Shown here: positions 1,997-25,016 of the stretch, piece by piece
Position numbering within the stretch: position 1 is the first letter of the stretch
Layout: each line of letters begins with the position of its first letter
Assembly: GCA_002490315.1 (NCBI GenBank)
Contig: DLKG01000005.1
Coordinates: forward strand, 1 to 26,489
From: Prevotella sp. UBA7594
GTDB lineage: Bacteria > Bacteroidota > Bacteroidia > Bacteroidales > Bacteroidaceae
Direction: 5' to 3'
DNA length: 26,489 nt
The notes under the pieces: generated by a model
The model's input: only the letters and a program-made list of their open reading frames with translations
What the model was told of the DNA's origin: nothing
Databases searched by the model: none
Translations under genes and position numbers: made by a program

Positions 1997-2620
1997 ATGA
2001 AAAGAAAGAATTGTTTCTCTACTCTTGCCGTAGCCGCCTTGGCTGCCATGGCAATGACCTCTTGCGACAAGTCAAAGTCGCAGGTCGACGACAAGCAGCC
2101 GGCAACAACGCAGACTGCCGCTGGCGCCACTAAGATTGCCTTCGTGGAAGTGGACAGCATAATGTCGCAGTACAAGTTCTGCAAAGACTACTCTCTCGTA
2201 CTTCAGAAGAAGGGACAGAACATACAGAAAACGCTCGCTCAGAAGCAGCAAGCTCTGCAGGCTGCTGCTGCCAACTTCCAGCAGAAACTCCAGCAGAATG
2301 CCTACACGCATGAGCAGGCACAGGCAATAGAGGCGTCGCTACAAAAGCAGAACCAGGATCTCCAGGTTCTCAATCAGCGCTTGAGCGGAGAGTTCCAGGC
2401 AGAGACGGAGAAGTACAACAACGCGCTGCGCGACAGCATACAGCACTTCCTCGCTGTCTACAACAAGGACAAGAAATACGGCCTGATTCTCAGCAAGGCT
2501 GGCGACAATATCCTCTACGCCGACAAGTCGCACGACATCACCAACGATGTGATTGCCGGACTCAACAAAGCTTACAAGCCGGCTCCTCCTACGGACAAGG
2601 CTGACGGCAAGAAGAAGTAA
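1997..2620 (+). CDS. OmpH/Skp-family periplasmic chaperone-like lipoprotein
   Basis: A 207-residue protein with an n-region MKRKN, a hydrophobic stretch and a lipobox ending TSC, so Cys23 is the likely lipidated residue. After a Thr/Ala/Gln linker, residues about 46-195 match the OmpH/Skp fold. It opens with KIAFVEVDSIMSQY, continues with a long Gln/Ala/Lys-rich coiled coil (about 70-150, the two Skp tentacle helices) and returns to a strand-like YGLILSKAGDNILYAD. Skp-type proteins hold unfolded outer-membrane proteins in the periplasm. Classical Skp is soluble, so lipid anchoring is a difference, though lipidated OmpH forms are known in Bacteroidota. The neighbouring downstream gene encodes an outer-membrane barrel, a plausible client. 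A hairpin terminator follows directly. The family is firm; the client set is inference. Confidence 0.88.
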   Translation: MKRKNCFSTLAVAALAAMAMTSCDKSKSQVDDKQPATTQTAAGATKIAFVEVDSIMSQYKFCKDYSLVLQKKGQNIQKTLAQKQQALQAAAANFQQKLQQNAYTHEQAQAIEASLQKQNQDLQVLNQRLSGEFQAETEKYNNALRDSIQHFLAVYNKDKKYGLILSKAGDNILYADKSHDITNDVIAGLNKAYKPAPPTDKADGKKK

Positions 2621-2644
2621 GTTAGATAATCTTAAGCAATAAGG

Positions 2645-2676
2645 ATGCGTCCGTAACAATACGGGCGCATTTTTTG
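2645..2676 (+). terminator. Rho-independent terminator after the OmpH-like gene
   Basis: An 11 bp stem (ATGCGTCCGTA / TACGGGCGCAT, one G-T wobble) closes a 4-base loop (2656-2659) and is followed by a T run at 2670-2675. It sits 25 bp after the stop codon at 2620. An upstream in-frame ATG at 2674 for the next gene falls in the T run, which argues for that gene starting at 2698. Confidence 0.8.
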
Positions 2677-2697
2677 TTGTTCTCACCTAATTTATGT

Positions 2698-5655
2698 ATG
2701 AACATCAAAAGACTACTTACGGCATTGTTGCTCGCAACCGCATTGCACGCCAATGCTGCAAGTGACGAGACATCAAAGGATAACAGCAAGGCAAGCACGG
2801 AGAAGGCGGAGAGCCGAAAGACGTGCAGGTCAATTCTTCAGGTTCTCTCGCAGCCGTTCCGTTGGATAGGGAAGAACTGGTCGGCGTACGATGAAAACTA
2901 CTCCACACCTTCCTTCTATAATTGGGCCTTTCAAATGCAGAACGCCACGTCGGGCGAGTGGATCAACATGGGGTATGACGACATCAGTCTGCACATGCGC
3001 TCAAAGATAAGCAACAAGATAGGCCCTTATCTTTACTATACCTTTCTCGGCTATGGCTTCGCAATCGACCTTAATGCACTGACGGGTACGAAGCGACGCA
3101 GCGAGTTCACGCTTTCCATCAACTCCAATCTCATGAACATTGACCTGATACGTAGGCGTACAGGCGGCGACTTCATGGTGAACCATCTCGACATTGCAGG
3201 AGTAAGCAACAGCGATTTCGATCTTGACGAGCTTGCTGCCAACTATCACGTTGGCGACGACGTGCGTTACAACGTCACGGGTATCAACATCAACGTCTTC
3301 ACCAACCACAAGAAATATTCCAATCCTGCAGCTTTCTCCAATGGGGCGATACAACTCCGCTCTGTCGGTTCGCCCATTGTCGGCCTCGGTTACACCCATC
3401 AGGAAATCAAGAACTCCATTTCCAACACCTTTCTCGACTACAGGGCTAAGCGTATGGGCTACGAGAAGTTTGACGGCTCAAGCGATCTTCTGCTCAAGAT
3501 GCTTATCGACGAGGACGACTACGTTGATATGCCGACGGCTGCTATCCTTCAAGCTACCATCCCGTCTTACCTTTCCGTGAAGGATCTCCACCTCCAGCTT
3601 GGCTACGCACAGAACATTGTCTTCTCGCGCCGACTGCTTCTCGGACTTTCGCTCGTGGCGTCTCCGGGTATAAAATGGGTGAAGGCAGACAACCACAGTA
3701 GCTATCAATACATCTTCAGGGACGGGACGGCTATGGTGACAGACTACTGTCTGCCTTTTCTGAAAAAATACATACAGGATGGTACGCTCGTGATTAGCAA
3801 TAAAAAATACCGCGACTATATTCTTAATCTCAAGCAAGTGACCCCCGATCTCTATGATATAGAAAGCAAGACGACGAGCTTCGGCACCAACCTTCATGCG
3901 CGTGCCAGCATCACGTACAACTACAATCGTTGGCGCTTTGGTGTCAATGCCAACGCGAGCGGCTATCTCTACAAGAAGAATCTCTTGCGCTTCAACAACT
4001 TCTATGGAAGTGTCGTGGCGTATGCCGGCTATTGTTTCGGACGCAAGAAAGCCTATCGATATGGCGGAGATAAGCGCGAGGCTTATATTAGGGCAGCACT
4101 GACGAAGAGCGAGATTGCTGAGACGCGCGACCTTAATCCGGCAAGTAATGTTGCTCCAGCAAGTGGCGACAAAAGTGGCGTCGACTCTTTGGGCAGCGTA
4201 AAGAGTGGTGCTGTGGTTAAGCACCGCACAAAATACTTCACGGATAAGTTCGACTTCAACATTGAGGGTTGCGACCTCGTAATGGGACCCGACGGCACTT
4301 ACGGATCCTATGAGATCACCGACGGCTTCGTAACTAACGCTGACGACTCCGAGGGACTGCTACGTCAAGGCACCAAGCTTGCCGTTGACGAGGATGGTAC
4401 TATCATTATCCGCGCTCCGCACAACTCAGGCTACCGTGCCGCCAATTGGTGGAAGGCACGTCTGACGACGCGTCAGAATTCACGCAATCGTGATCCGGAA
4501 CTTCTTCATTATGCACTCTGTGGAAAGCTTACGCTCTACGTGCGAAGCCACAATTTCGGGACGATGCGCCCCGTGCCGCTCGTCGTTGACAGTTTCTACA
4601 TTAGCCACGGAAAGGTTAACAAAAGCTATTACGAGATTGGAGCAAAGCATTTCATGTCGTACTCCACAGCGAGCATTATGGGACATGTCAACGTCAACGG
4701 ACGTCTGACACGTGTCTACATAGAGAGCCGTCGTGGCGGCAAGCACTTCAATCTCTATGCTGTGCCGATGCGCGCGTCTACACTGAACTGGATGGCGCAC
4801 GTCAGTGACACGTGCCGCATAAGCCGTATATCAATCCCTGGCACTCATGATGCCGGATCGGCGTCGCTTAAGGAGACGACGATGGCCAGTGCGGGCCATA
4901 CGCAGAACTTCCCCGTAAGCGAACAGATGGCTGATGGAATACGTGCTTTCGACTTCCGGCTGAAAAAGAACATGAAGTTCGGACACACTATTATTTGTCG
5001 CGACGGCATACATGAGACGATTCAGGACATGGCCGACTTCCTGAAGAGAAATCCCTCGGAGTTTCTTGTCGCCATCATTGGTAGTGACGAGGGAGGAAGC
5101 AATTGGCCTGCCGGAATGGCCGACTCGCTCAGCATGGAGCTTGCGCCTTACCGCGACTTGATAGTGGAGGACTTCTCTGCGGCGACCCGACTGAAGGACG
5201 TGCGAGGCAAAATATTGTTCATCAAGCGTCAGGAAGCCTGCCCCGTGGGAAAGTATTTGCCTTTCCAAGACAATACAACGTTTGTTGCCAACGGATTTCA
5301 TGTGGAGGACGTCTACAAGGAGCACAAGACCTATCGCAAGATAAAAATCGTGGAGCGTCATATACGCGAGGCTTACGAGAACGACAATTCCAACCTCTGG
5401 TACATCACGTTCAACAGCATCGCATGGGATCCGCGCCATCACAAGCCTTACTATTCTGCATGGGGAGCACGCAACGTGCGAAAGCCTATGAACCGCTCTT
5501 TGCGAGAGATAATAGAACTCAAGGCTTACAGCCGTTTTGGCATGGTGTTCCTCGACTTCTACAATGACCATGGCGACCAGCCACAGCTTGTGAACTCTAT
5601 CATCATGTCAAACTTCAACATCAATCAGGTGGAAGACTACATTCCTGCTCCATAA
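2698..5655 (+). CDS. Secreted DUF4421-like outer-membrane barrel fused to a PI-PLC-like phosphodiesterase domain
   Basis: A 985-residue protein in one uninterrupted frame. Residues 1-20 are a signal peptide (MNIKRLLTALLLATALHANA). A short charged linker follows. Residues about 60-455 look like the Bacteroidota DUF4421 barrel family, with GYDDISL, KIGPYLYYTFLGYGF and alternating aromatic/polar strands. A Ser/Ala/Gly linker spans about 460-515, then an unassigned beta-rich segment about 518-700. Residues about 705-985 resemble the PI-PLC X domain: SIPGTHDAGS (H717, D718), GIRAFDFRL (R754), KFGH (H763), a helix with DFLKRNPSEFLVAIIG, and a terminal GMVFLDFYNDHG. The two histidines, the Asp and the Arg correspond to catalytic positions of bacterial PI-PLC, so the domain is probably active as a lyase-like phosphodiesterase. 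The substrate is unknown. Start 2698 is preferred to 2674 because it gives a clean signal peptide. It lies after a terminator with no same-strand partner. Confidence 0.8.
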   Translation: MNIKRLLTALLLATALHANAASDETSKDNSKASTEKAESRKTCRSILQVLSQPFRWIGKNWSAYDENYSTPSFYNWAFQMQNATSGEWINMGYDDISLHMRSKISNKIGPYLYYTFLGYGFAIDLNALTGTKRRSEFTLSINSNLMNIDLIRRRTGGDFMVNHLDIAGVSNSDFDLDELAANYHVGDDVRYNVTGININVFTNHKKYSNPAAFSNGAIQLRSVGSPIVGLGYTHQEIKNSISNTFLDYRAKRMGYEKFDGSSDLLLKMLIDEDDYVDMPTAAILQATIPSYLSVKDLHLQLGYAQNIVFSRRLLLGLSLVASPGIKWVKADNHSSYQYIFRDGTAMVTDYCLPFLKKYIQDGTLVISNKKYRDYILNLKQVTPDLYDIESKTTSFGTNLHARASITYNYNRWRFGVNANASGYLYKKNLLRFNNFYGSVVAYAGYCFGRKKAYRYGGDKREAYIRAALTKSEIAETRDLNPASNVAPASGDKSGVDSLGSVKSGAVVKHRTKYFTDKFDFNIEGCDLVMGPDGTYGSYEITDGFVTNADDSEGLLRQGTKLAVDEDGTIIIRAPHNSGYRAANWWKARLTTRQNSRNRDPELLHYALCGKLTLYVRSHNFGTMRPVPLVVDSFYISHGKVNKSYYEIGAKHFMSYSTASIMGHVNVNGRLTRVYIESRRGGKHFNLYAVPMRASTLNWMAHVSDTCRISRISIPGTHDAGSASLKETTMASAGHTQNFPVSEQMADGIRAFDFRLKKNMKFGHTIICRDGIHETIQDMADFLKRNPSEFLVAIIGSDEGGSNWPAGMADSLSMELAPYRDLIVEDFSAATRLKDVRGKILFIKRQEACPVGKYLPFQDNTTFVANGFHVEDVYKEHKTYRKIKIVERHIREAYENDNSNLWYITFNSIAWDPRHHKPYYSAWGARNVRKPMNRSLREIIELKAYSRFGMVFLDFYNDHGDQPQLVNSIIMSNFNINQVEDYIPAP

Positions 5656-5690
5656 AGAAAAGAATGAGTTTTTTGCATTGATAAAAATAA

Positions 5691-5714
5691 TTGTTCTTAA
5701 GTTGATTAGAACAA
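5691..5714. repeat. Short inverted repeat after the barrel-PLC gene
   Basis: TTGTTCTTAA and TTAGAACAA are near-perfect inverted arms around a 5-base loop, 35 bp after the stop codon. No T run follows, so it may protect the 3' end of the mRNA rather than terminate it. Confidence 0.4.
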
Positions 5715-5735
5715 TGACTCCTGCGTTCATTGAGT

Positions 5736-5790
5736 AAAAAGGAAAATATTGCGGGCGGTATTTTGCTTTGCCAGCAATGTTTTCCTTTTT
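5736..5790 (+). terminator. Probable terminator after the barrel-PLC gene
   Basis: Inverted arms AAAAAGGAAAATATTGC (5736-5752) and GCAATGTTTTCCTTTTT (5774-5790) pair with one G-T wobble. The right arm ends in a T run. The A-rich left arm and T-rich right arm would let it work in either direction. Confidence 0.6.
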
Positions 5791-5816
5791 CCTTATGTGA
5801 ATTTCAATCGCCTTTA

Positions 5817-5848
5817 TTTGTAAATTCCAAATCTTTAGTTTAACTTTG
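5817..5848 (+). promoter_or_regulatory. Promoter for nth
   Basis: TTTG (5817-5820), a 20 bp spacer and TAACTTTG (5841-5848) are an exact match to the Bacteroidetes consensus. Transcription would start near 5853 and give a leader of roughly 170 nt before the ATG at 6022. Confidence 0.65.
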
Positions 5849-6021
5849 TCACAATATAACCATTATATAAAAATGGCATTGGTTGACATTCATTGGGCAT
5901 ACCAACGAAGCCATGCGCCTTTTTATACTTACAGGAAAAACAACAAACCAAACTTAATGAACCCTAAACAAGATGGAACAGGTTTTACATTTGTTTTCAT
6001 TTTCATTAATAAATAAGGAAT

Positions 6022-6654
6022 ATGACAAAAAAGGAACTCTATAAAAATGTGCTCGACTATTTCCGCCGACTTCATCCAGAGGTGACGACGGAGCTTGAGT
6101 TTGGCAGCGTCTTCCAGCTCCTTGTGGCTGTTGTGCTCAGTGCTCAATGCACCGACAAGCGCGTCAATCAGATTACGCCAGAACTTTTCCGCAACTATCC
6201 CGATGCGCGGTCGATGGCTGAGGCTGACGAGGTGGAAGTGTATGAGTATGTGAAGAGTGTGAGCTACCCTAATGCAAAGGCGCATCACCTCGTTGAACTC
6301 GCCCGTATGCTAATGGCGGACTATGGAGGAGAGGTTCCGCACGATTTCGACAGTTTGCTTCGTCTGCCGGGAGTGGGGAGGAAAACAGCCAATGTCATGG
6401 AGGCTGTAGCCTTCGGAAAGGCTGCGATGCCGGTTGATACGCATGTGTTCCGTGTCAGTCATAGACTCGGACTCGTGCCGTGCTCTGCCAACACGCCGTT
6501 GAAAGTGGAGAAGGTTCTTACAAAGAACATCCCGCCTGACGACCTCGCTAACGCCCACCATTGGCTACTTCTCCATGGAAGATATGTCTGCACGGCGCGC
6601 AAACCCCATTGTGAAAAGTGCGAGCTTAACACTATTTGTCCTAAGCGTATCTGA
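6022..6654 (+). CDS. nth: Endonuclease III, bifunctional DNA glycosylase/AP lyase
   Basis: A 210-residue base-excision repair enzyme that removes oxidised pyrimidines and cleaves at abasic sites. The helix-hairpin-helix LPGVGRKTA carries the catalytic lysine K121. The VDTHVFRV motif supplies the catalytic aspartate D139. The C-terminal 4Fe-4S loop is intact with spacing C-x6-C-x2-C-x5-C (C190, C197, C200, C206). The length is the family norm of about 210, and no key residue is missing. Start codon ATG 6022 follows an A-rich leader (aataaataaggaat). A strong upstream promoter supports its own transcript, and comEC follows 88 bp downstream on the same strand. uvrA lies nearby on the other strand, but there is no sign of a shared operon. 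Confidence 0.97.
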   Translation: MTKKELYKNVLDYFRRLHPEVTTELEFGSVFQLLVAVVLSAQCTDKRVNQITPELFRNYPDARSMAEADEVEVYEYVKSVSYPNAKAHHLVELARMLMADYGGEVPHDFDSLLRLPGVGRKTANVMEAVAFGKAAMPVDTHVFRVSHRLGLVPCSANTPLKVEKVLTKNIPPDDLANAHHWLLLHGRYVCTARKPHCEKCELNTICPKRI

Positions 6655-6742: not shown

Positions 6743-8395
6743 ATGATTGTCAACGGTCGCATACAGTCTTACCCATTCTTCCGCATCGGCATGATGCTTG
6801 TCGGTGGCATTCTTGTCGCCGATGCCTTGCGTAGTGTGGTGGCATCAGTTGAGTGGCAGTGGCTGTTTGTGGGTATTCTCTTTCTATCCCTTGTCGCTTG
6901 GTTTGGGCTGAAGGCTCATCCCATAGTGCAGACAACTCTGCTCTTAGCGCTACTTTTCACTGGCGGTGCCTGGAGAATGTCGTGCTATGAGGAAGGACTT
7001 GAGTGTGATTTTACGGGTGAACAGGAGGATTATGAGGCGGTGGTGGTGGCGCCGCCATTGGAGAAAGAACGTTCTTTCAAGTGCGTATTGTTTATTACGG
7101 ATGGAAGAATGAGAGGGAAAAAGGTCAACGCCTACTTCCAAAAAAGCGTTGATAGGGCCGTTGGCAGCTCTGAAACGCCGTCGTTGGGACTTGCCGTAGG
7201 AGACGGAATAAAAGTTTCGTCGGTGTTTGACAATGCGGAAGATGGAGGAGCGTACAACGCAGGGCGTTTCAATTATGGACGTCAACTGCTCGTGCGGGGC
7301 ATAGCAGCACGCACGTTCGTGGCTGACGGCAGTTGGAGTAGGGCAGTGGTGAACCTTGGCGGAATGTCATCATTCGGCAGACTCGCCTTGCATTTGCAAG
7401 CCTTACGCGACAGAATGTTGGTACGGCTTCGCGCCAGCGGCATTGCTCCTGATGCCTACGCCACAATTGCTGCCGTGACGCTTGGCGACAAGTCGGCACT
7501 GACGGCAGAACTTCGCGAATCGTATTCCAAGGCAGGAGCCTCACATGTGCTTGCCTTGTCGGGCTTGCACATTGGCATCATCTACGGATTCCTTTCAATG
7601 ATTTTCCTGCGCCGGCGCATTTCCATTGTCGGCACTGCCCTCATACTTGTCGCCATTTGGCTGTTTGCGATGATGGTAGGCATGGGGGCGAGTGTGGTGA
7701 GGTCGGTAGTTATGGTAACTGTATATACGCTCATAATGATGCTCAACAGCGAAAAGGCGTCCTTCAACGGACTCTTGGTGGCTGCTGTGCTGATACTCCT
7801 TTGGTCGCCGGCAGCACTGTGGGATGTTGGCTTCCAAATGTCGTTTGTGGCAGTTGCTGGCATTTTGGCGTGTAACAGTCGCGTGCTTCGTAGCCATTCC
7901 TATCGTGTGATGTTGGCTAAAGGTGGGCTTTGGCGTGCCGTTTCGTTGGTCGTTGTTTCCGTGGCGGCGCAGATTGCCGTATTGCCGCTTGTTATGTATT
8001 ATTTCGGGCGCGTGCCACTGCTCTTCATCATTGCCAATTTTGTGGCAATACCACTCACCACAATTATTATATATATGACATTTCTACTGTTGCTAACCTC
8101 ACCTGTTGTTATTTTAGCCAATAGTCTCTCCGTCTGTTGGCAGCATGTTGCCAGCGGCTTGGGTTGGCTGACACAGGCGCAGAATAGTGCCTTGTCATGG
8201 GTGGCTTCTCTGCCTTGCGCAAGCGTCGACGGCGTTCATGTCAATATGCTTCAGCTCTTGCTCTATTATCTTTTCCTTGTCATGCTTTACTGGCTGTCGT
8301 TCTATGTGGAGAACATGTACATGTCGGCACATGGCTTCCGGCTTGTAGAGCGGCGTTATCGTGACGTGCGTTTTGAACGTCTCAAAGGAGGCTAA
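6743..8395 (+). CDS. comEC: ComEC/Rec2-family DNA-uptake channel protein, form without a metallo-beta-lactamase domain
   Basis: A 550-residue polytopic membrane protein. The N-terminus (about 12-75) has membrane helices, followed by a soluble DUF4131-like segment (about 80-200) with GAYNAGRFNYGRQLLVRGI. The Competence domain core occupies about 265-510, with the signature SHVLALSGLHIGIIYG near residues 265-280 and several further helices. ComEC carries one DNA strand across the inner membrane during transformation. Gram-positive ComEC is about 770 residues with a C-terminal metallo-beta-lactamase domain; this one stops soon after the last helix at a basic tail (RRYRDVRFERLKGG), so that domain is absent. 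The ATG at 6743 gives a sensible N-terminus, and no alternative start was needed. The gene converges on the ABC ATPase with only 26 bp between stops. The family is firm; active competence is inferred. Confidence 0.88.
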   Translation: MIVNGRIQSYPFFRIGMMLVGGILVADALRSVVASVEWQWLFVGILFLSLVAWFGLKAHPIVQTTLLLALLFTGGAWRMSCYEEGLECDFTGEQEDYEAVVVAPPLEKERSFKCVLFITDGRMRGKKVNAYFQKSVDRAVGSSETPSLGLAVGDGIKVSSVFDNAEDGGAYNAGRFNYGRQLLVRGIAARTFVADGSWSRAVVNLGGMSSFGRLALHLQALRDRMLVRLRASGIAPDAYATIAAVTLGDKSALTAELRESYSKAGASHVLALSGLHIGIIYGFLSMIFLRRRISIVGTALILVAIWLFAMMVGMGASVVRSVVMVTVYTLIMMLNSEKASFNGLLVAAVLILLWSPAALWDVGFQMSFVAVAGILACNSRVLRSHSYRVMLAKGGLWRAVSLVVVSVAAQIAVLPLVMYYFGRVPLLFIIANFVAIPLTTIIIYMTFLLLLTSPVVILANSLSVCWQHVASGLGWLTQAQNSALSWVASLPCASVDGVHVNMLQLLLYYLFLVMLYWLSFYVENMYMSAHGFRLVERRYRDVRFERLKGG

Positions 8396-12028: not shown

Positions 12029-12745
12029 TTATTCAGTAGTGTTGCTGCCCGTGTTCTCTGTGTAGCCACGCAGCAGGTTCACGTCTTTTTTGATGTTGTA
12101 TTTTCTTCCGTCGGCACCCTTGGCCTTCACCAGTACGTAGTAGACGCCCTGCTTGACAGGCTTGCCGTGGAACTTGCCGTCCCATCCCTCGGCAGGATTG
12201 TCCCATTCGAAGATTTTCTGTCCCCATCGGTTGAAGATGGTGGCGTGGAACTCCACGATACTCTGATAGCCGCTTTTCGCCTTGTAGACATCGTTTATGC
12301 CGTCGTCGTTGGGTGAGAAAGCGTTGGGAAAGTCGAGCTTGCTCTCTGATATGGAGATTGTCAAGGGTGAATTTTCGTTCCAGTAGTCGCTCGTGTAGGC
12401 GATGGTGTCGGTGCCGTTGACGAATGTGGCATAGAGCACGACGCGGTGGGCGCCCGCCTCGGTGAAGGTAAAGTCGGTGTCTTCTTCGTAGCGGATGAGA
12501 TATGGCTGGTTAGCGCCTTCCTTCGTAAAGCGCCATTCGTAATGGGCTATGTAGGCGCCAACGTTGGCAGCGTTGGCATGAAAGTGGGCAGTAAGAGGTG
12601 CCGACCCGGAGTAGCTTGTGCCCGTTTCCTCTTCGCCTTCTGCCGTGACAAACGTGGCTTGCGGGTCAATGGTTGGCACGTCGTCGGCTAATGCCTTAAT
12701 TGTTCCGCAGAGAAAAAACAGAATTATGAGTCTTGCGTATTTCAT
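12029..12745 (-). CDS. Secreted PKD-like protein with a gliding-motility-type C-terminal (CHU_C) sorting domain
   Basis: A 238-residue secreted protein. The signal peptide is [24 protein letters not shown]-like beta domain lies at about 40-125 ([35 protein letters not shown]). The C-terminal domain at about 140-228 begins [19 protein letters not shown] and continues [22 protein letters not shown] and [13 protein letters not shown], the hallmark of the CHU_C (T9SS type B sorting) family. Such domains direct cargo through the type IX secretion system. The start was moved from an in-frame ATG at 12808 to 12745: this exposes the signal peptide at the N-terminus, and a promoter at 12779-12786 would start transcription inside the longer version. 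The cargo part is tiny, so the role may be structural or adhesive. It is first in a likely cluster with uvrA and an ABC ATPase. Confidence 0.85.
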
Positions 12746-12778
12746 TTTCTTGTAAGTGTATGATGATGGTTGTTGCTG

Positions 12779-12786
12779 CAAAGTTA
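12779..12786 (-). promoter_or_regulatory. Candidate -7 element for the CHU_C/uvrA/ABC cluster
   Basis: The minus strand reads TAACTTTG, the exact -7 consensus, about 34 bp upstream of the ATG at 12745. No clear TTTG lies at the -33 position. Its location supports the 12745 start. Confidence 0.45.
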
Positions 12787-12866
12787 CGCAAATTCTCGCA
12801 TAAAACATTAAGCTTGTCCAGTTGATTTGTCAAGATGAGCCACAACTTATTAAAAGTTACGGAAAA

Positions 12867-12927: not shown

Positions 12928-14295
12928 ATGACACGTTGTATCAGAATTGTTTTATGCTTTTTTGTAATGGCTGTTGCCTTAGTGGCATCGGCGCAGTCCG
13001 TGAAGTGGCAGGACCTCTACAAGGTGAAGAAAAAGGACACTATATATGGAATAGCACAGCGGTATGGTATCAGCATTGATGAGCTGATAGCAGCTAATCC
13101 TGATATGCAGAAATCCGACTATGTGCTCAAAAAGGGCGATCAGCTTCTCATTCCTTATCCTAAGAAAGCAGCCTCTCCCGTCTCTTCCGCTACGCAGGTT
13201 TCCACGGCTTCTGCTTCACAGACTCGCCGTCCGGCAGCATCGGGCACGGTGAACGTAGGCGTGATGTTGCCGTTGCACAATGTGGACGGCGACGGACAAC
13301 GCATGGTGGAGTACTATCGTGGTGTCCTCATGGCGTGCGACAGCCTCCGCAGCCAGGGTATCAGCACCAACGTATATGCTTGGAACGTGCCCATTGACGC
13401 CGACATCAAGCAGTTTACAACAGACGACAACGCACGCAAGTGCGACCTGATATTCGGTCCGCTCTATTCTAAGCAGGTGAAGCCGCTTGGCGACTTCTGC
13501 CGCAAGCACGACATACGGCTTGTCATTCCGTTCTCAATCAACGGGGGTGACGTGGAGACCAACGATTACATCTTCCAGGTCTACCAGTCGAATGCGCAGC
13601 TCAACGACGCTGCCGTCAAGGCATTTCTCAATCGCTTCAAGGGTTGCCATCCGATTTTCGTCGATTGCAACGACACGACGAGCCGCAAGGGCGCCTTTAC
13701 CTCCGCGTTGCGTCGCCAGCTTGAAGCGCAGGGCATAGCCTACAACATCACTAATTTGAAGTCGTCCGACCAAATGTTCGCCAAGTCGTTCAGTGCCACA
13801 CAGCGAAATGTCATCGTGCTCAACACAGCCAGGTCGCCGCAACTCAACTCCACGCTTGCCAAACTCGACATTCTGCGCACCTCAAATCCGGGTTTGAAAA
13901 TCTCGCTGTTTGGCTATACCGAGTGGCTTATGTACACGCACGTCTACCGCGACTATTTCCATAAATACGATGCCTACATCCCCACGGCGTTTTTCTACAA
14001 TCAGTTTTCCTCCAAGACGCAGGGCCTTGAGCGTAGCTATAAGCGCTGGTTTCATTCTGACATGAGGCAACATCTGCCTCGTTTGGCAATCACGGGCTAC
14101 GACCAGGCGCAGTTCTTCATCCGGGGTATAAGCAAGTATCGCGACGGCTTCACTGGTTCCGCGCAGCAGAACAGCTACACGCCGCTGCAGTCGCCATTGA
14201 AGTTCAAGCGCATAAATGGAGGTGGTTTGCAGAACACAAGTTTCATGCTTGTTCACTATCGTACGGACAAAGTGATAGAGTCTATATCGTATTAA
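12928..14295 (+). CDS. LysM domain fused to a type 1 periplasmic binding-protein domain
   Basis: A 455-residue exported protein. The signal peptide is residues 1-22 or so (hydrophobic core then VASAQ), with no lipobox. One LysM repeat lies at about 31-77: YKVKKKDTIYGIAQRYGISIDEL followed by NPDM and LKKGDQLLIP. LysM binds peptidoglycan glycan strands. A Ser/Thr/Ala linker (80-106) leads to a fold like amino-acid ABC substrate-binding proteins: VNVGVMLPLH at 108 on, DLIFGPLYSKQVKPL, and VIPFSINGG. Anchoring to the cell wall through LysM would keep a sensor or binding domain in the periplasm. No ABC permease lies beside it, so ligand sensing or envelope scaffolding is as likely as transport. 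The PorT-like barrel gene follows after 47 bp and is probably co-transcribed. The ligand is unknown. Confidence 0.82.
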   Translation: MTRCIRIVLCFFVMAVALVASAQSVKWQDLYKVKKKDTIYGIAQRYGISIDELIAANPDMQKSDYVLKKGDQLLIPYPKKAASPVSSATQVSTASASQTRRPAASGTVNVGVMLPLHNVDGDGQRMVEYYRGVLMACDSLRSQGISTNVYAWNVPIDADIKQFTTDDNARKCDLIFGPLYSKQVKPLGDFCRKHDIRLVIPFSINGGDVETNDYIFQVYQSNAQLNDAAVKAFLNRFKGCHPIFVDCNDTTSRKGAFTSALRRQLEAQGIAYNITNLKSSDQMFAKSFSATQRNVIVLNTARSPQLNSTLAKLDILRTSNPGLKISLFGYTEWLMYTHVYRDYFHKYDAYIPTAFFYNQFSSKTQGLERSYKRWFHSDMRQHLPRLAITGYDQAQFFIRGISKYRDGFTGSAQQNSYTPLQSPLKFKRINGGGLQNTSFMLVHYRTDKVIESISY

Positions 14296-14304
14296 AAGAT
14301 GAAA

Positions 14305-14319
14305 AGATAGTACCTATCT
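14305..14319 (+). repeat. Small hairpin between the LysM protein and PorT-like genes
   Basis: AGATAG and CTATCT are perfect 6-base inverted arms around a 3-base loop. The stop-codon context TCGTATTAA (ends 14295) is repeated just after the hairpin. A T-rich stretch follows at 14331-14338, so partial termination or mRNA processing is possible. Confidence 0.4.
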
Positions 14320-14342
14320 CGTATTAAGTTTAGTTTTTGACA

Positions 14343-15116
14343 ATGCAATTAAGAAAGTACATAAACAACACGTACCGGCTCTTTCTGTGCGTGTTCATTG
14401 CCTGCACGACACCATTGTCTGTGTCGGCGCAGATAGGCAGCCATCGCAACGACCTTGCAATAGGCGTGAACGGCGGCTATGTGATGAGTTCCGTTGGCTT
14501 TACACCGAAGGTTACGCAGAACCAGCATGGAGGAATCACGGGCGGATTGTCGCTGCGCTACACCTGCGAGAAGTATTTCAAGACCTACTGCTCCATAGCT
14601 GCTGAGGTAAACTACGCCCGAATAGGATGGAAGGAGCGCATACTCACGTCGACCGACCAGCCAGTCGTGAACAGCGCAACGGGACTTGCCGAGGCTTATC
14701 AGCGCCACCTCGATTACATACAGGTGCCTATCTTTGCCCATCTTGCATGGGGAAAGGAGAACCGTGGTGTGCAGTTCTTCTTCAAGGCAGGTCCACAGTT
14801 TGGCTTTCTTCTCGGTGAGTCGACGACGACAAACTTTGACGTTCGCCATGCCAACCTCGACGACCGCTCCAACAAGACGTGGGCGCAAGACACCATGAAG
14901 GTGGAGAACAAGTTTGACTACGGCATAGCCGCCGGACTCGGCATAGAATACTGCATTCCGAAAGTGGGCCATTTCCTTCTCGAAGGACGCTACTACTACG
15001 GACTCGGCAACATCTACGGCGACTCCAAACGCGACTATTTCGCCAAGTCAAACCATTCAAATATCGTTGTTAAACTGACGTATCTCTTCGACGTCGTGCG
15101 CACGAAGAAAGATTAA
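14343..15116 (+). CDS. PorT-like outer-membrane beta-barrel protein
   Basis: A 257-residue protein with a signal peptide (residues 1-29 or so, ending VSAQ). It is followed by alternating strand motifs typical of the small outer-membrane barrel family that includes PorT: LAIGVNGGYVMSSVGF, LSLRYTCEKYF, SIAAEVNYARIGWKE, YIQVPIFAHLAWG, FFFKAGPQFGFLLG, GIAAGLGIEYCI, FLLEGRYYYGLGNIYG, and a final strand NIVVKLTYLFDV. The TTG-initiated frame at 14337 is only two codons longer; the ATG at 14343 is preferred. This is a family-level match: true PorT belongs to type IX secretion, but this gene cannot be equated with it. It follows the LysM/binding-protein gene, suggesting a cell-wall/outer-membrane pair. 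Its stop codon overlaps the convergent COG0523 stop by 4 bp. Confidence 0.8.
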   Translation: MQLRKYINNTYRLFLCVFIACTTPLSVSAQIGSHRNDLAIGVNGGYVMSSVGFTPKVTQNQHGGITGGLSLRYTCEKYFKTYCSIAAEVNYARIGWKERILTSTDQPVVNSATGLAEAYQRHLDYIQVPIFAHLAWGKENRGVQFFFKAGPQFGFLLGESTTTNFDVRHANLDDRSNKTWAQDTMKVENKFDYGIAAGLGIEYCIPKVGHFLLEGRYYYGLGNIYGDSKRDYFAKSNHSNIVVKLTYLFDVVRTKKD

Positions 15117-22370: not shown

Positions 22371-24881
22371 TTACCTCACAACAACCTTTTTCACCTTTCC
22401 GTCGCTCATGCGCACAATGTTAAGTCCCTTGACGGGGGCGGAGATGCGACATCCCTGAAGGTCGTAACGTTCGGTTACGGTTGCATTGTTGACGATTTCA
22501 TTTATGCCGACAGTGCTGTCCGTACAACGTGTGTAGATGTAAAGTGGACTGCCGTCCAACTTGTAGACTTCCGCCAACTTAGGACAGTATGGAGCATTGA
22601 AATATATTTTCCATGTCACCACTTTCCCATAGTCGCTCTCTTCAAATGGTTCACCAAAGGTCATTAAAGAGAAATTCTTTGAGAATTTGTTATAGCCCTT
22701 TGTCGTTTCGCTCTTTGCTAAGGAAGTTTTGTCGTCAAGTGTTTGTGTGAGACTTATTGTGTAGTTGAAATTCTCCGGAGTTATAGCAGACATATACCAG
22801 TCGAAGTCATAGTCGAATACCAGTTCATCAATGCTTTTTGACATGTCAATGTCTATCACCTTGCCGTCTGCAATGTCGTATTTGATGGTCTCGCCGTCTG
22901 ATGTATTGGCACTGAGCGCAGCGTTGACAATGTAGGGGCGTGTTGGGTCTGGATCGGCATTCACCGTGAGTGTCACGGGACCGCCTTCTACATCGACAGG
23001 CATCAGTTCTTTGGAGCTGCCAACGTAGGGAAGCACCGTATATGTGCCTTCTTCAAGATTGTTGGCTGTCACACAATCAATAATATTGCTCACCGTGTTG
23101 TCCAAGCCGCCGAATGCCGAGAACAAGGTATGGTCAAGCTCAATGTGAGATCCTTGCTTATCGCCATTTTTTGCGAGGAAGAGTATAAGGTTGTCCCATA
23201 AGTGGTCGCCTCCGTTCTTTGTGTCGATTTTTGCCGTCCATGTGAGATTTTCACCGAATGTCACAGACGACTTGTCAAATGTAAGGCTCTTTATGACCAC
23301 AGGCTCAAAATTCAGTCTATAAAGGTTTATGGACGTTTTGCCATCTGCAATGGTCATGTCGATACGGTATGCCAAGAAAGGACATGCCTTCCATGTGTCA
23401 AACGGTGTGCCGTCAGATTTCGTGTCCTTCACTTCCAGCTTCAGTCTGTAGGACCCGTTGGGCAAGTTGGCAGGTATTACTTCTGCAAGAGGATACACTA
23501 TCGTGCTTTTCTCGTTTGGCGACGTAGTCTTGAGATCGTCTTCGCGGAGTATGGCTATAGTGGTGTCGTCCTCAGAGGTGAGAACCAATCTTGCCTTGCC
23601 GTCAAATTTCTTGTACGATGCGTGCTGGAAGCCTGCTTTGAGAGAACCTGGCAGACTTGTGCCCGTACCCTCCAGTTTTTCCACCTCCTCATTTTCTGCG
23701 TTTAGCAATGTTGGCAGGACAAGAGTTCCTGTTTGTTCTTCAGCGTTGGTTGGCTCGCCATTTCGGCATGGAGTGAGGTGGACAAAATCCATTCTTATGT
23801 TGAAACTTGCGGTGCTGTATCCTAACTTGGAGAATGTGTAATAGCCGTCGCCAGATCCGCTCCATCCCCAATTTATGTGCAGATAGTCGTTACTGTCATA
23901 GCCGTCGATGACATACTGGTGGCCACCCAAGTTGTGGTCTTGTCCTGCATATGACAGTGGGTCGCCAGCGTCAATGAATTTCTTTATTAATGCAATCCAT
24001 TCTTTGGCATTGTATTCGTAGTTGTAATACATCACAGCCTTATATCCGAAATATTTGTTTATGGTATTGGCTATGTCGTATGTCCAGCTGCCGCTCGACT
24101 TCAAACCGTATTCCATATGTATGGCGGCGCCAAGGTCGCGCATCAGTGTTGCCACGGCCTTTCCTTGTGCATCGTTCCATTCAGGTGTGCCGTCAGTCTT
24201 TGTGTTGTAGTTGTCGAGCATGTTGTCCCAATCATATACCGACTGTGTGAAGTCGATGTTCATGGTCTTGGTGTCGTAGTTAGGCGTGGCATAATTGACA
24301 CTGCCTGTGCCTTTCTGCGGCCACTTGTAGTAGTTGAACACCTGTGCCAACGACGTCGCAACACAGCCCGTCAAGGTATGCTGGTTGTTTATGGTGGGGG
24401 TGAGGTCATTGTATGGTGCTTGTTGATTCCATTTTGTCTTGATAAGGGGATTCACGACAATGGTTGGCTCGTTGTCTTCACTACTGCCAGCAGCTGTTTT
24501 TGCCACGCCGCCGCCAACCTTTCGCATGGCTGTGATGTCGTCGGACACAGCACAGAGCCAATCCTTGAGTTGTGGCGGGAGATTGTTGATGTCGATGCTG
24601 CCTTCATGGCTGTAGCCGAGAACCGGACTGATGCAGTCGTCGCCGGCAATTAGTACGAATCCCTTGCCCTTATTGTCGTTGATGGCGTAAAAGTTGGGCC
24701 TGTCATTCATGGAATCGGGAGTGGCAGCCAACGGTGCCTTGAACTGGCGCATTTTCTTTGCTTCTCCCACACTTATGTATTTAGCCGCTATGTCTCTTGC
24801 CTGTGCCGGAGTGATGTCTTTGGCAACAGCTGTGAGCGGGCTGAAGGTTAGACCTGCGAGAAATAAAGTGTAAATTTTCAT
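22371..24881 (-). CDS. Secreted C10-family (streptopain/interpain-like) cysteine peptidase with a type-IX-like C-terminal tail
   Basis: An 836-residue secreted protease precursor. The signal peptide is residues 1-20 (ends AVA). An inhibitory prodomain of the C10/I69 type lies at about 22-135 (ITPAQARDIAAKYI, NFYAIND, GFVLIAGDD, PVLGYSHEG). The papain-fold catalytic domain is about 150-395: the nucleophile is C173 in LTGCVATSLAQVFNYYKWP, the histidine is H321 in GGHQYVIDGYDS, followed by YLHINWGWSG. Long beta-rich segments run from about 400 to 780. The last 45 residues (YDLQGCRI ... GLNIVRMSDGKVKKVVVR) resemble a T9SS type A sorting tail, so secretion to the surface is likely. The start was moved from the in-frame ATG at 24944 to 24881 to place the signal peptide first. 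A strong promoter at 25017-25047 gives a leader of about 130 nt. Related Prevotella enzymes degrade host proteins. Confidence 0.9.
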   Translation of the reverse strand: MKIYTLFLAGLTFSPLTAVAKDITPAQARDIAAKYISVGEAKKMRQFKAPLAATPDSMNDRPNFYAINDNKGKGFVLIAGDDCISPVLGYSHEGSIDINNLPPQLKDWLCAVSDDITAMRKVGGGVAKTAAGSSEDNEPTIVVNPLIKTKWNQQAPYNDLTPTINNQHTLTGCVATSLAQVFNYYKWPQKGTGSVNYATPNYDTKTMNIDFTQSVYDWDNMLDNYNTKTDGTPEWNDAQGKAVATLMRDLGAAIHMEYGLKSSGSWTYDIANTINKYFGYKAVMYYNYEYNAKEWIALIKKFIDAGDPLSYAGQDHNLGGHQYVIDGYDSNDYLHINWGWSGSGDGYYTFSKLGYSTASFNIRMDFVHLTPCRNGEPTNAEEQTGTLVLPTLLNAENEEVEKLEGTGTSLPGSLKAGFQHASYKKFDGKARLVLTSEDDTTIAILREDDLKTTSPNEKSTIVYPLAEVIPANLPNGSYRLKLEVKDTKSDGTPFDTWKACPFLAYRIDMTIADGKTSINLYRLNFEPVVIKSLTFDKSSVTFGENLTWTAKIDTKNGGDHLWDNLILFLAKNGDKQGSHIELDHTLFSAFGGLDNTVSNIIDCVTANNLEEGTYTVLPYVGSSKELMPVDVEGGPVTLTVNADPDPTRPYIVNAALSANTSDGETIKYDIADGKVIDIDMSKSIDELVFDYDFDWYMSAITPENFNYTISLTQTLDDKTSLAKSETTKGYNKFSKNFSLMTFGEPFEESDYGKVVTWKIYFNAPYCPKLAEVYKLDGSPLYIYTRCTDSTVGINEIVNNATVTERYDLQGCRISAPVKGLNIVRMSDGKVKKVVVR

Positions 24882-24915
24882 ACTTGTGTAGTGCTTATAT
24901 AAAAAATGATGTTCC

Positions 24916-24936
24916 CCTCCTTTAAACAAAGGGAGG
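24916..24936 (-). repeat. Hairpin in the C10 protease leader
   Basis: CCTCCTTT and AAAGGGAGG pair with one bulged G around a 4-base loop. On the transcript strand the right arm reads AAAGGAGG, which looks like a Shine-Dalgarno sequence but lies about 35 nt before the ATG at 24881, too far to serve it directly. Confidence 0.4.
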
Positions 24937-25016
24937 AAAATCAAAAATTCTCAAAAAAATATTTTAATGGTTTAAAACTAATTAGAAAAACTATTTAATA
25001 GAAACTATTATAGATA

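Follow-up and report, generated by a model that had tools for sequence, protein, structure and literature searches.

The gene on the forward strand at positions 2698..5655 raised the question of what a phosphatidylinositol-specific phospholipase C (PI-PLC) domain does when it hangs on an outer-membrane barrel, and on which side of the membrane it would act. The window, which is the whole stretch of 26,489 nucleotides of contig DLKG01000005.1 from Prevotella sp. UBA7594, carries this gene as one frame of 985 amino acids. All of its parts lie on the forward strand: a Sec signal peptide (residues 1-21, 2698..2760; the end was set by eye, with a computed helix at 2-20), a DUF4421 outer-membrane barrel with about 12 strands and three long loops (residues 64-447, 2887..4038), a linker (residues 448-512, 4039..4233), a beta domain which is a probable distant relative of the thermostable direct hemolysin (TDH) / actinoporin fold (residues 513-690, 4234..4767) and the PI-PLC catalytic domain (residues 692-975, 4771..5622). 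The DUF4421 profile (PF14391) was matched over positions 2-302 of 302 with 164.9 bits (cut-off 32.1; E 4e-48). A Pfam search of the full protein at E 0.05 matched DUF4421 alone, and no peptidoglycan-binding domain, inverse-autotransporter barrel or LysM was found. The sequence-only reading had claimed that one frame joins a barrel with a PI-PLC X-like domain, and this was confirmed, with a true PI-PLC fold and the catalytic residues intact and conserved across the family. Of the profile search that it had proposed for the two halves, the DUF4421 half gave the expected match while Pfam PI-PLC-X scored 14.6 bits on the cut-out domain, under the cut-off of 23.1, and was absent from the full-protein listing. 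PF00388 was precomputed for 11 of 116 homologues.

The C-terminal third matched bacterial PI-PLC structures over residues 697-972 (best E 2.5e-20) and belongs to the PI-PLC TIM-barrel fold, with 24-28% identity to secreted PI-PLCs in the VIA rows. The two catalytic histidines, their aspartate partner and the arginine were all found. H717 and D718 (4846..4851, +) correspond to H32, the catalytic base position, and its neighbour D33 of the Bacillus enzyme, D953 (5554..5556, +) to D274, the partner of H32, and R754 (4957..4959, +) to R69, an arginine which we take to stand in place of calcium. H763 (4984..4986, +) corresponds to the catalytic acid H82 in a 37-sequence alignment; the pairwise alignment disagrees and puts D769 instead of H763 at the second catalytic histidine. 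Among the 104 aligned rows bearing the PLC domain, H717 was kept in 104, D718 in 102, R754 in 102, H763 in 101 and D953 in 104, and all five in 100, so that the four residues named as catalytic-type by the sequence-only reading held up. R844, D871 and Y873 (within 5227..5316, +), kept in 103, 102 and 103 rows, align with Bacillus R163, D198 and Y200, which presumably contact the inositol ring. Titles of the matched structures include mutants of several of these Bacillus residues. Judging from fold and residues, the domain would be a calcium-independent PI-PLC, predicted to cleave inositol phospholipids by an H717/H763/D953 mechanism. The PI-PLCs of Bacillus cereus/thuringiensis, Staphylococcus aureus and Listeria are small soluble secreted enzymes, whereas here the domain is attached to an outer-membrane barrel, with a hemolysin-like domain in between.

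The segment between linker and enzyme had been described as beta-rich and unassigned; it is beta-rich, and it is now probably to be placed as a distant relative of TDH, on several faint signals that converge. A profile of alignment A2 matched TDH over about 60 residues at E 6e-4, and the wider mixed alignment A3, which includes PLC columns and distant rows, lowered the signal to E 0.04-0.08. Foldseek returned TDH in all of its first five rows (E 0.036-0.068, prob 0.28-0.44). Pfam TDH (PF03347) matched 3 of 35 members with a best E of 0.0068; the unrelated families Daxx (0.004) and dUTPase_2 (0.0046) outscored TDH in one member each, and the window's own beta domain gave no TDH match at E 5. 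All three main forms of the family retain the beta domain, a pattern suggesting that it serves as the functional core. Against this stands a short form (P0132 and genome G340, C37) without the beta domain, in which the start of the barrel is joined to the end of the PLC and the middle is apparently deleted.

A first search, at E 1e-10 among the 7991 best candidates, yielded 116 clusters. An alignment search at E 1e-30 found 130, and the 120 matches listed added only P0162-P0167, a full fusion together with five proteins of 456-525 aa; within the reach of these searches, little of the family appears to be left to find. The 115 aligned rows (the query and 114 clusters) comprised 104 with and 11 without the PLC domain. 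In nine of the PLC-less rows the middle domain was nearly whole, while P0116 has 78% and P0117 26% of it. The PLC-less loci L028-L030 stop directly after the middle domain; no PLC motif was found in the three forward frames within the next 1.5 kb of L028 and L030, and L029 has just 166 bases left. A pattern-based scan of 84,980 species genomes, the counts of which are a lower bound, gave at least 36 loci, namely 33 of the fusion family and 3 ordinary DUF4421 proteins. The 33 family loci lay in 27 assemblies by accession prefix; 28 ran into the PLC in one frame, 2 were cut by a contig end and 3 were PLC-less. Although a Bacteroides setting had been suggested earlier, these 33 loci are titled Prevotella, Prevotellaceae, Bacteroidaceae, Bacteroidales or 'uncultured bacterium' MAGs, and several titles name rumen, horse, roe deer or yak. 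The fusion was present in 4 of 301 sampled genomes of the family of one carrier, G003, and in 5 of 100 of its genus, with the PLC-less form in 1 of 100. Overall, the fusion is a conserved but rare protein family of gut bacteria. The earlier reading had allowed for a widespread, already characterised architecture, and no characterisation or description of the fusion was found by title and abstract start in the open-licence literature; the parts are known, and the combination is a family not found described in the literature searched.

Ordinary DUF4421 proteins and a family member occurred together in 10 of 12 genomes searched, while G008 had the fusion alone and G012 ordinary ones alone. Barrel-less relatives (P0121-P0126 and P0128) consist of a signal peptide, the middle domain and the PLC, and one barrel-less gene directly adjoins a fusion gene (G011, L031). 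Within an 80-row tree, one group (100/100) nested in the fusions comprised P0121-P0126, with an enclosing branch of 98/99, and 9 of 10 PLC-less rows formed one clade within the fusions (100/97); P0116, the tenth PLC-less row, and P0128 sat on long, unsure branches. The simplest account would be an early three-domain form within the family, followed by separate losses of barrel and PLC. Other arrangements were also seen. P0130, P0131 and P0133 are more distant proteins of 460 aa with a TDH-like domain and PLC, which start without a signal peptide. P0091 and L050 exceed the usual length, one (1324 aa) by glycosyltransferase domains and the other by about 175 extra N-terminal residues, and may be run-on frames. 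At L034, L035 and L036, in Bacteroidales/Bacteroidia MAGs, paired ordinary DUF4421 genes are followed by the same 438-aa gene.

The fusion gene is preceded by an OmpH/Skp-like gene and followed by an endonuclease III gene. A terminator-like hairpin of 15 pairs with a T tail (2641..2674, +) lies between the OmpH/Skp-like gene and the fusion gene and suggests that the latter is its own transcription unit. The three terminator-like sites found in 2500-6050 are no more than chance as a count (mean of 3.4 in shuffles); the other two have 5 pairs each. Clustering of neighbours in 36 loci and the window gave clade-level synteny only, with no gene partner shared by more than five loci and no conserved neighbour that names a pathway; ATP-synthase-like genes, named by eye from sequence starts, lay upstream in five loci. 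Elsewhere in the window, a protein at 12029-12808 (-) has a type B sorting domain of the type IX secretion system (T9SS) and a weak PKD match, from which type IX secretion is probably present in the source organism; no sorting-type tail was matched in the fusion protein. The window also encodes a ComEC-like protein of 550 aa at 6743-8395 (+), in which the competence domain was matched and the C-terminal nuclease-like part was not, a LysM protein with a weak periplasmic-binding-protein match at 12928-15116 (+), which adjoins an OMP_b-brl_2 barrel, and a C10 (streptopain-type) peptidase of 857 aa with a Spi inhibitor propeptide at 22371-24944 (-).

For the side of the membrane, the end of the barrel was informative. 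The last strand ends at F447, with F in 114 of 115 aligned rows, and by strand parity the long loops (167-189, 239-290 and 332-388) are on the side opposite the C-terminus. Stand-alone DUF4421 proteins have the same full-length barrel as residues 64-447. The 16 stand-alone rows compared had 10 distinct C-termini, of which four, reading …VGYRF or …VGFRF, ended at the F447 column with F and one ended there with L; the other five, all from Prevotella-like relatives, extend 4-15 residues past it. Outer-membrane proteins usually carry their assembly signal as an aromatic C-terminal residue, at the periplasmic end of the barrel. Since several stand-alone DUF4421 proteins terminate at the F447 column and the long loops face the other way, the exit of the chain from the barrel is very likely periplasmic. 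The enzyme would therefore be either periplasmic, as in OmpA, or threaded back through the pore, as in intimin. The earlier placing of the enzyme at the membrane surface is thus not upheld unless the linker threads back. No paper with the word DUF4421 was found in the open-licence literature searched.

Our tentative best explanation, held at somewhat less than even confidence and put ahead of an intimin-like display, is an outer-membrane-anchored phosphodiesterase with both C-terminal domains in the periplasm, turning over inositol phospholipids. The signal peptide, as read from the sequence, would direct the protein to the periplasm, where BAM would insert the DUF4421 barrel, and the chain would exit the last strand at the periplasmic face, given the F447 column and the loop lengths. 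The conserved helical linker and disordered tether would then carry the beta domain and the PLC. The TDH/actinoporin-like domain may dock on a lipid or sugar, and the C-terminal domains would stay periplasmic and work on the outer membrane's inner leaflet, where they are predicted to turn over phosphatidylinositol or inositol-phosphoceramide, either the cell's own or acquired. OmpA-type proteins have an N-terminal 8-strand barrel and a C-terminal peptidoglycan-binding domain; the fusion is like them in having its C-terminal domain after the last strand and unlike them in having about 12 strands and a PI-PLC instead of a peptidoglycan-binding domain. The barrel-less relatives fit a periplasmic location, with a possible lipobox by eye in P0122 only, otherwise a plain Sec signal, and no match of the seven to T9SS sorting models (NCBIfam, E 1); without a known surface signal, they are therefore expected to stay periplasmic. 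However, the stand-alone C-termini that run past the F447 column sit among Prevotella-like relatives, the conserved linker also fits a pore-crossing linker, and a hemolysin-like domain facing the cell's own periplasm is odd. In addition, the extra PI-PLC genes that accompany the fusion (see below) may point to foreign lipids.

The nearest competitor, possible although judged less probable, is display of the intimin (type 5e) kind, in which the linker turns at the periplasmic face and threads the lumen, so that the beta domain and PLC stand on the surface and act on foreign membranes, such as those of rumen protozoa, plant or host cells, or on GPI- or inositol-lipids. In domain order alone, with an N-terminal barrel and a putative C-terminal passenger, the protein matches type 5e. 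It resembles inverse autotransporters (intimin, invasin) in the succession of N-terminal barrel, helical turn, conserved linker and C-terminal domains. The linker has two short helices with a break (460-467 and 470-477), then an extended stretch conserved to about residue 487, where there is a bridge, and a flexible part (disordered at 494-506) before the first C-terminal domain; its N484 is invariant in 115 of 115 rows. The available text of PMC13078405 gives a similar succession for intimin, with a helical turn, a lumen linker and a short strand at the outer mouth of the barrel. Outward use is also suggested by the hemolysin-like domain and by the additional PI-PLC genes, several of which start like surface lipoproteins. 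Nevertheless, the barrel does not belong to the intimin/invasin family and is unrelated to it by Pfam, an enzyme replaces the Ig-like adhesin domains, and the passage through the lumen is putative. Four relatives (P0163, P0165-P0167) end in or shortly past the first linker helix and have no passenger, so the helix is not specific to export, and barrel-less forms persist with a Sec signal seen by eye. The full-model VIA list consisted mostly of PLC rows, and the absence of an inverse autotransporter among its 50 rows excludes nothing. A first look at co-variation between linker and barrel appeared to couple the distal linker with the outer loops; the control gave the same for the variable N-terminus, and the coupling was dropped and put down to column variability. 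This control counted among the outer loops (E1) the stretch 115-134, which by strand parity is a periplasmic turn; with either assignment, co-variation favoured neither of the two routes. The fuller proposal is a new intimin-like means of self-display in Bacteroidota: the DUF4421 barrel would pass its own linker outward, so that a docking domain of hemolysin fold and a PI-PLC stand on the surface of gut Prevotella-like cells, directed at inositol lipids of protozoa or other foreign membranes. It is judged less likely than not.

Whether the substrate could be the cell's own lipid was also considered, as a self-directed role on inositol lipids had been proposed from the sequence. According to the portions of PMC9246714 consulted, inositol lipid synthesis is widespread in gut Bacteroidetes and a putative alternative cluster is common in Prevotella, and the accessible part of PMC8791184 reports abundant inositol phosphoceramide in the outer-membrane vesicles that Bacteroides thetaiotaomicron forms. 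Matches to a MIPS domain occurred in 8 of 13 fusion genomes; of 18 genus members lacking the fusion, 12 had such a match, in one case as fragments only (Fisher p 1.0). With this predicted Prevotella pathway and MIPS, it is plausible that carriers have their own inositol lipids, and the proposed role stays possible; MIPS is equally common without the fusion, and therefore no specific link of the fusion to own inositol lipids emerged. Extra PI-PLC genes were found with the same query in 9 of 13 fusion genomes and 1 of 18 others (Fisher p 3e-4; the sets were matched for neither kinship nor genome completeness), and G006 was a tenth fusion genome with such a gene, seen with the P0001 query. At most, this hints at carriers living on or among inositol lipids. 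Nine extra genes had a readable start, one of them from G010, a genome with the PLC-less form; in seven the start is of lipoprotein type, with acidic residues following the cysteine. An acidic lipoprotein export signal sends lipoproteins to the surface, as stated in the excerpt available of PMC5080379. These lipoprotein starts would seem to be the ordinary surface route for PI-PLC in carriers, and the barrel fusion would seem to be something else. Bacteroidota PI-PLC lipoproteins (P0134, L072, L076) share the PI-PLC motifs, and P0134 keeps all aligned catalytic residues; unlike the fusion, they have a lipoprotein-like start with acidic residues and no barrel, and a Pfam scan of P0134 gave no TDH-like domain.

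It is improbable, on either side of the membrane, that the PLC keeps the fold and residues and cuts another phosphodiester, for example an inositol- or glycan-phosphate of capsule or LPS-like molecules. G795 aligns with K115 of the Bacillus enzyme, a lysine whose presumed role underlies this argument, but R844, D871 and Y873 match the inositol-contacting residues and are nearly invariant. A minor amount of inositol in a Bacteroides capsule, mentioned in the part of PMC9246714 at hand, also favours such a substrate. Finally, an assembly artefact that ran two genes together is effectively refuted, the same fusion being present in 104 of 115 aligned rows and 28 of 33 scanned family loci running into the PLC in one frame.

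The making side of inositol lipids in gut Bacteroidota has been worked out only recently, as far as the sections seen of PMC9246714 and PMC8791184 indicate. The fusion is a candidate for the breaking side of these lipids or, alternatively, for an attack directed outward at eukaryotic membranes. Some members of DUF4421, for which barrel family no function was found in the literature searched, would thereby gain a putative activity, and a single chain would combine a hemolysin-like fold with a lipase.
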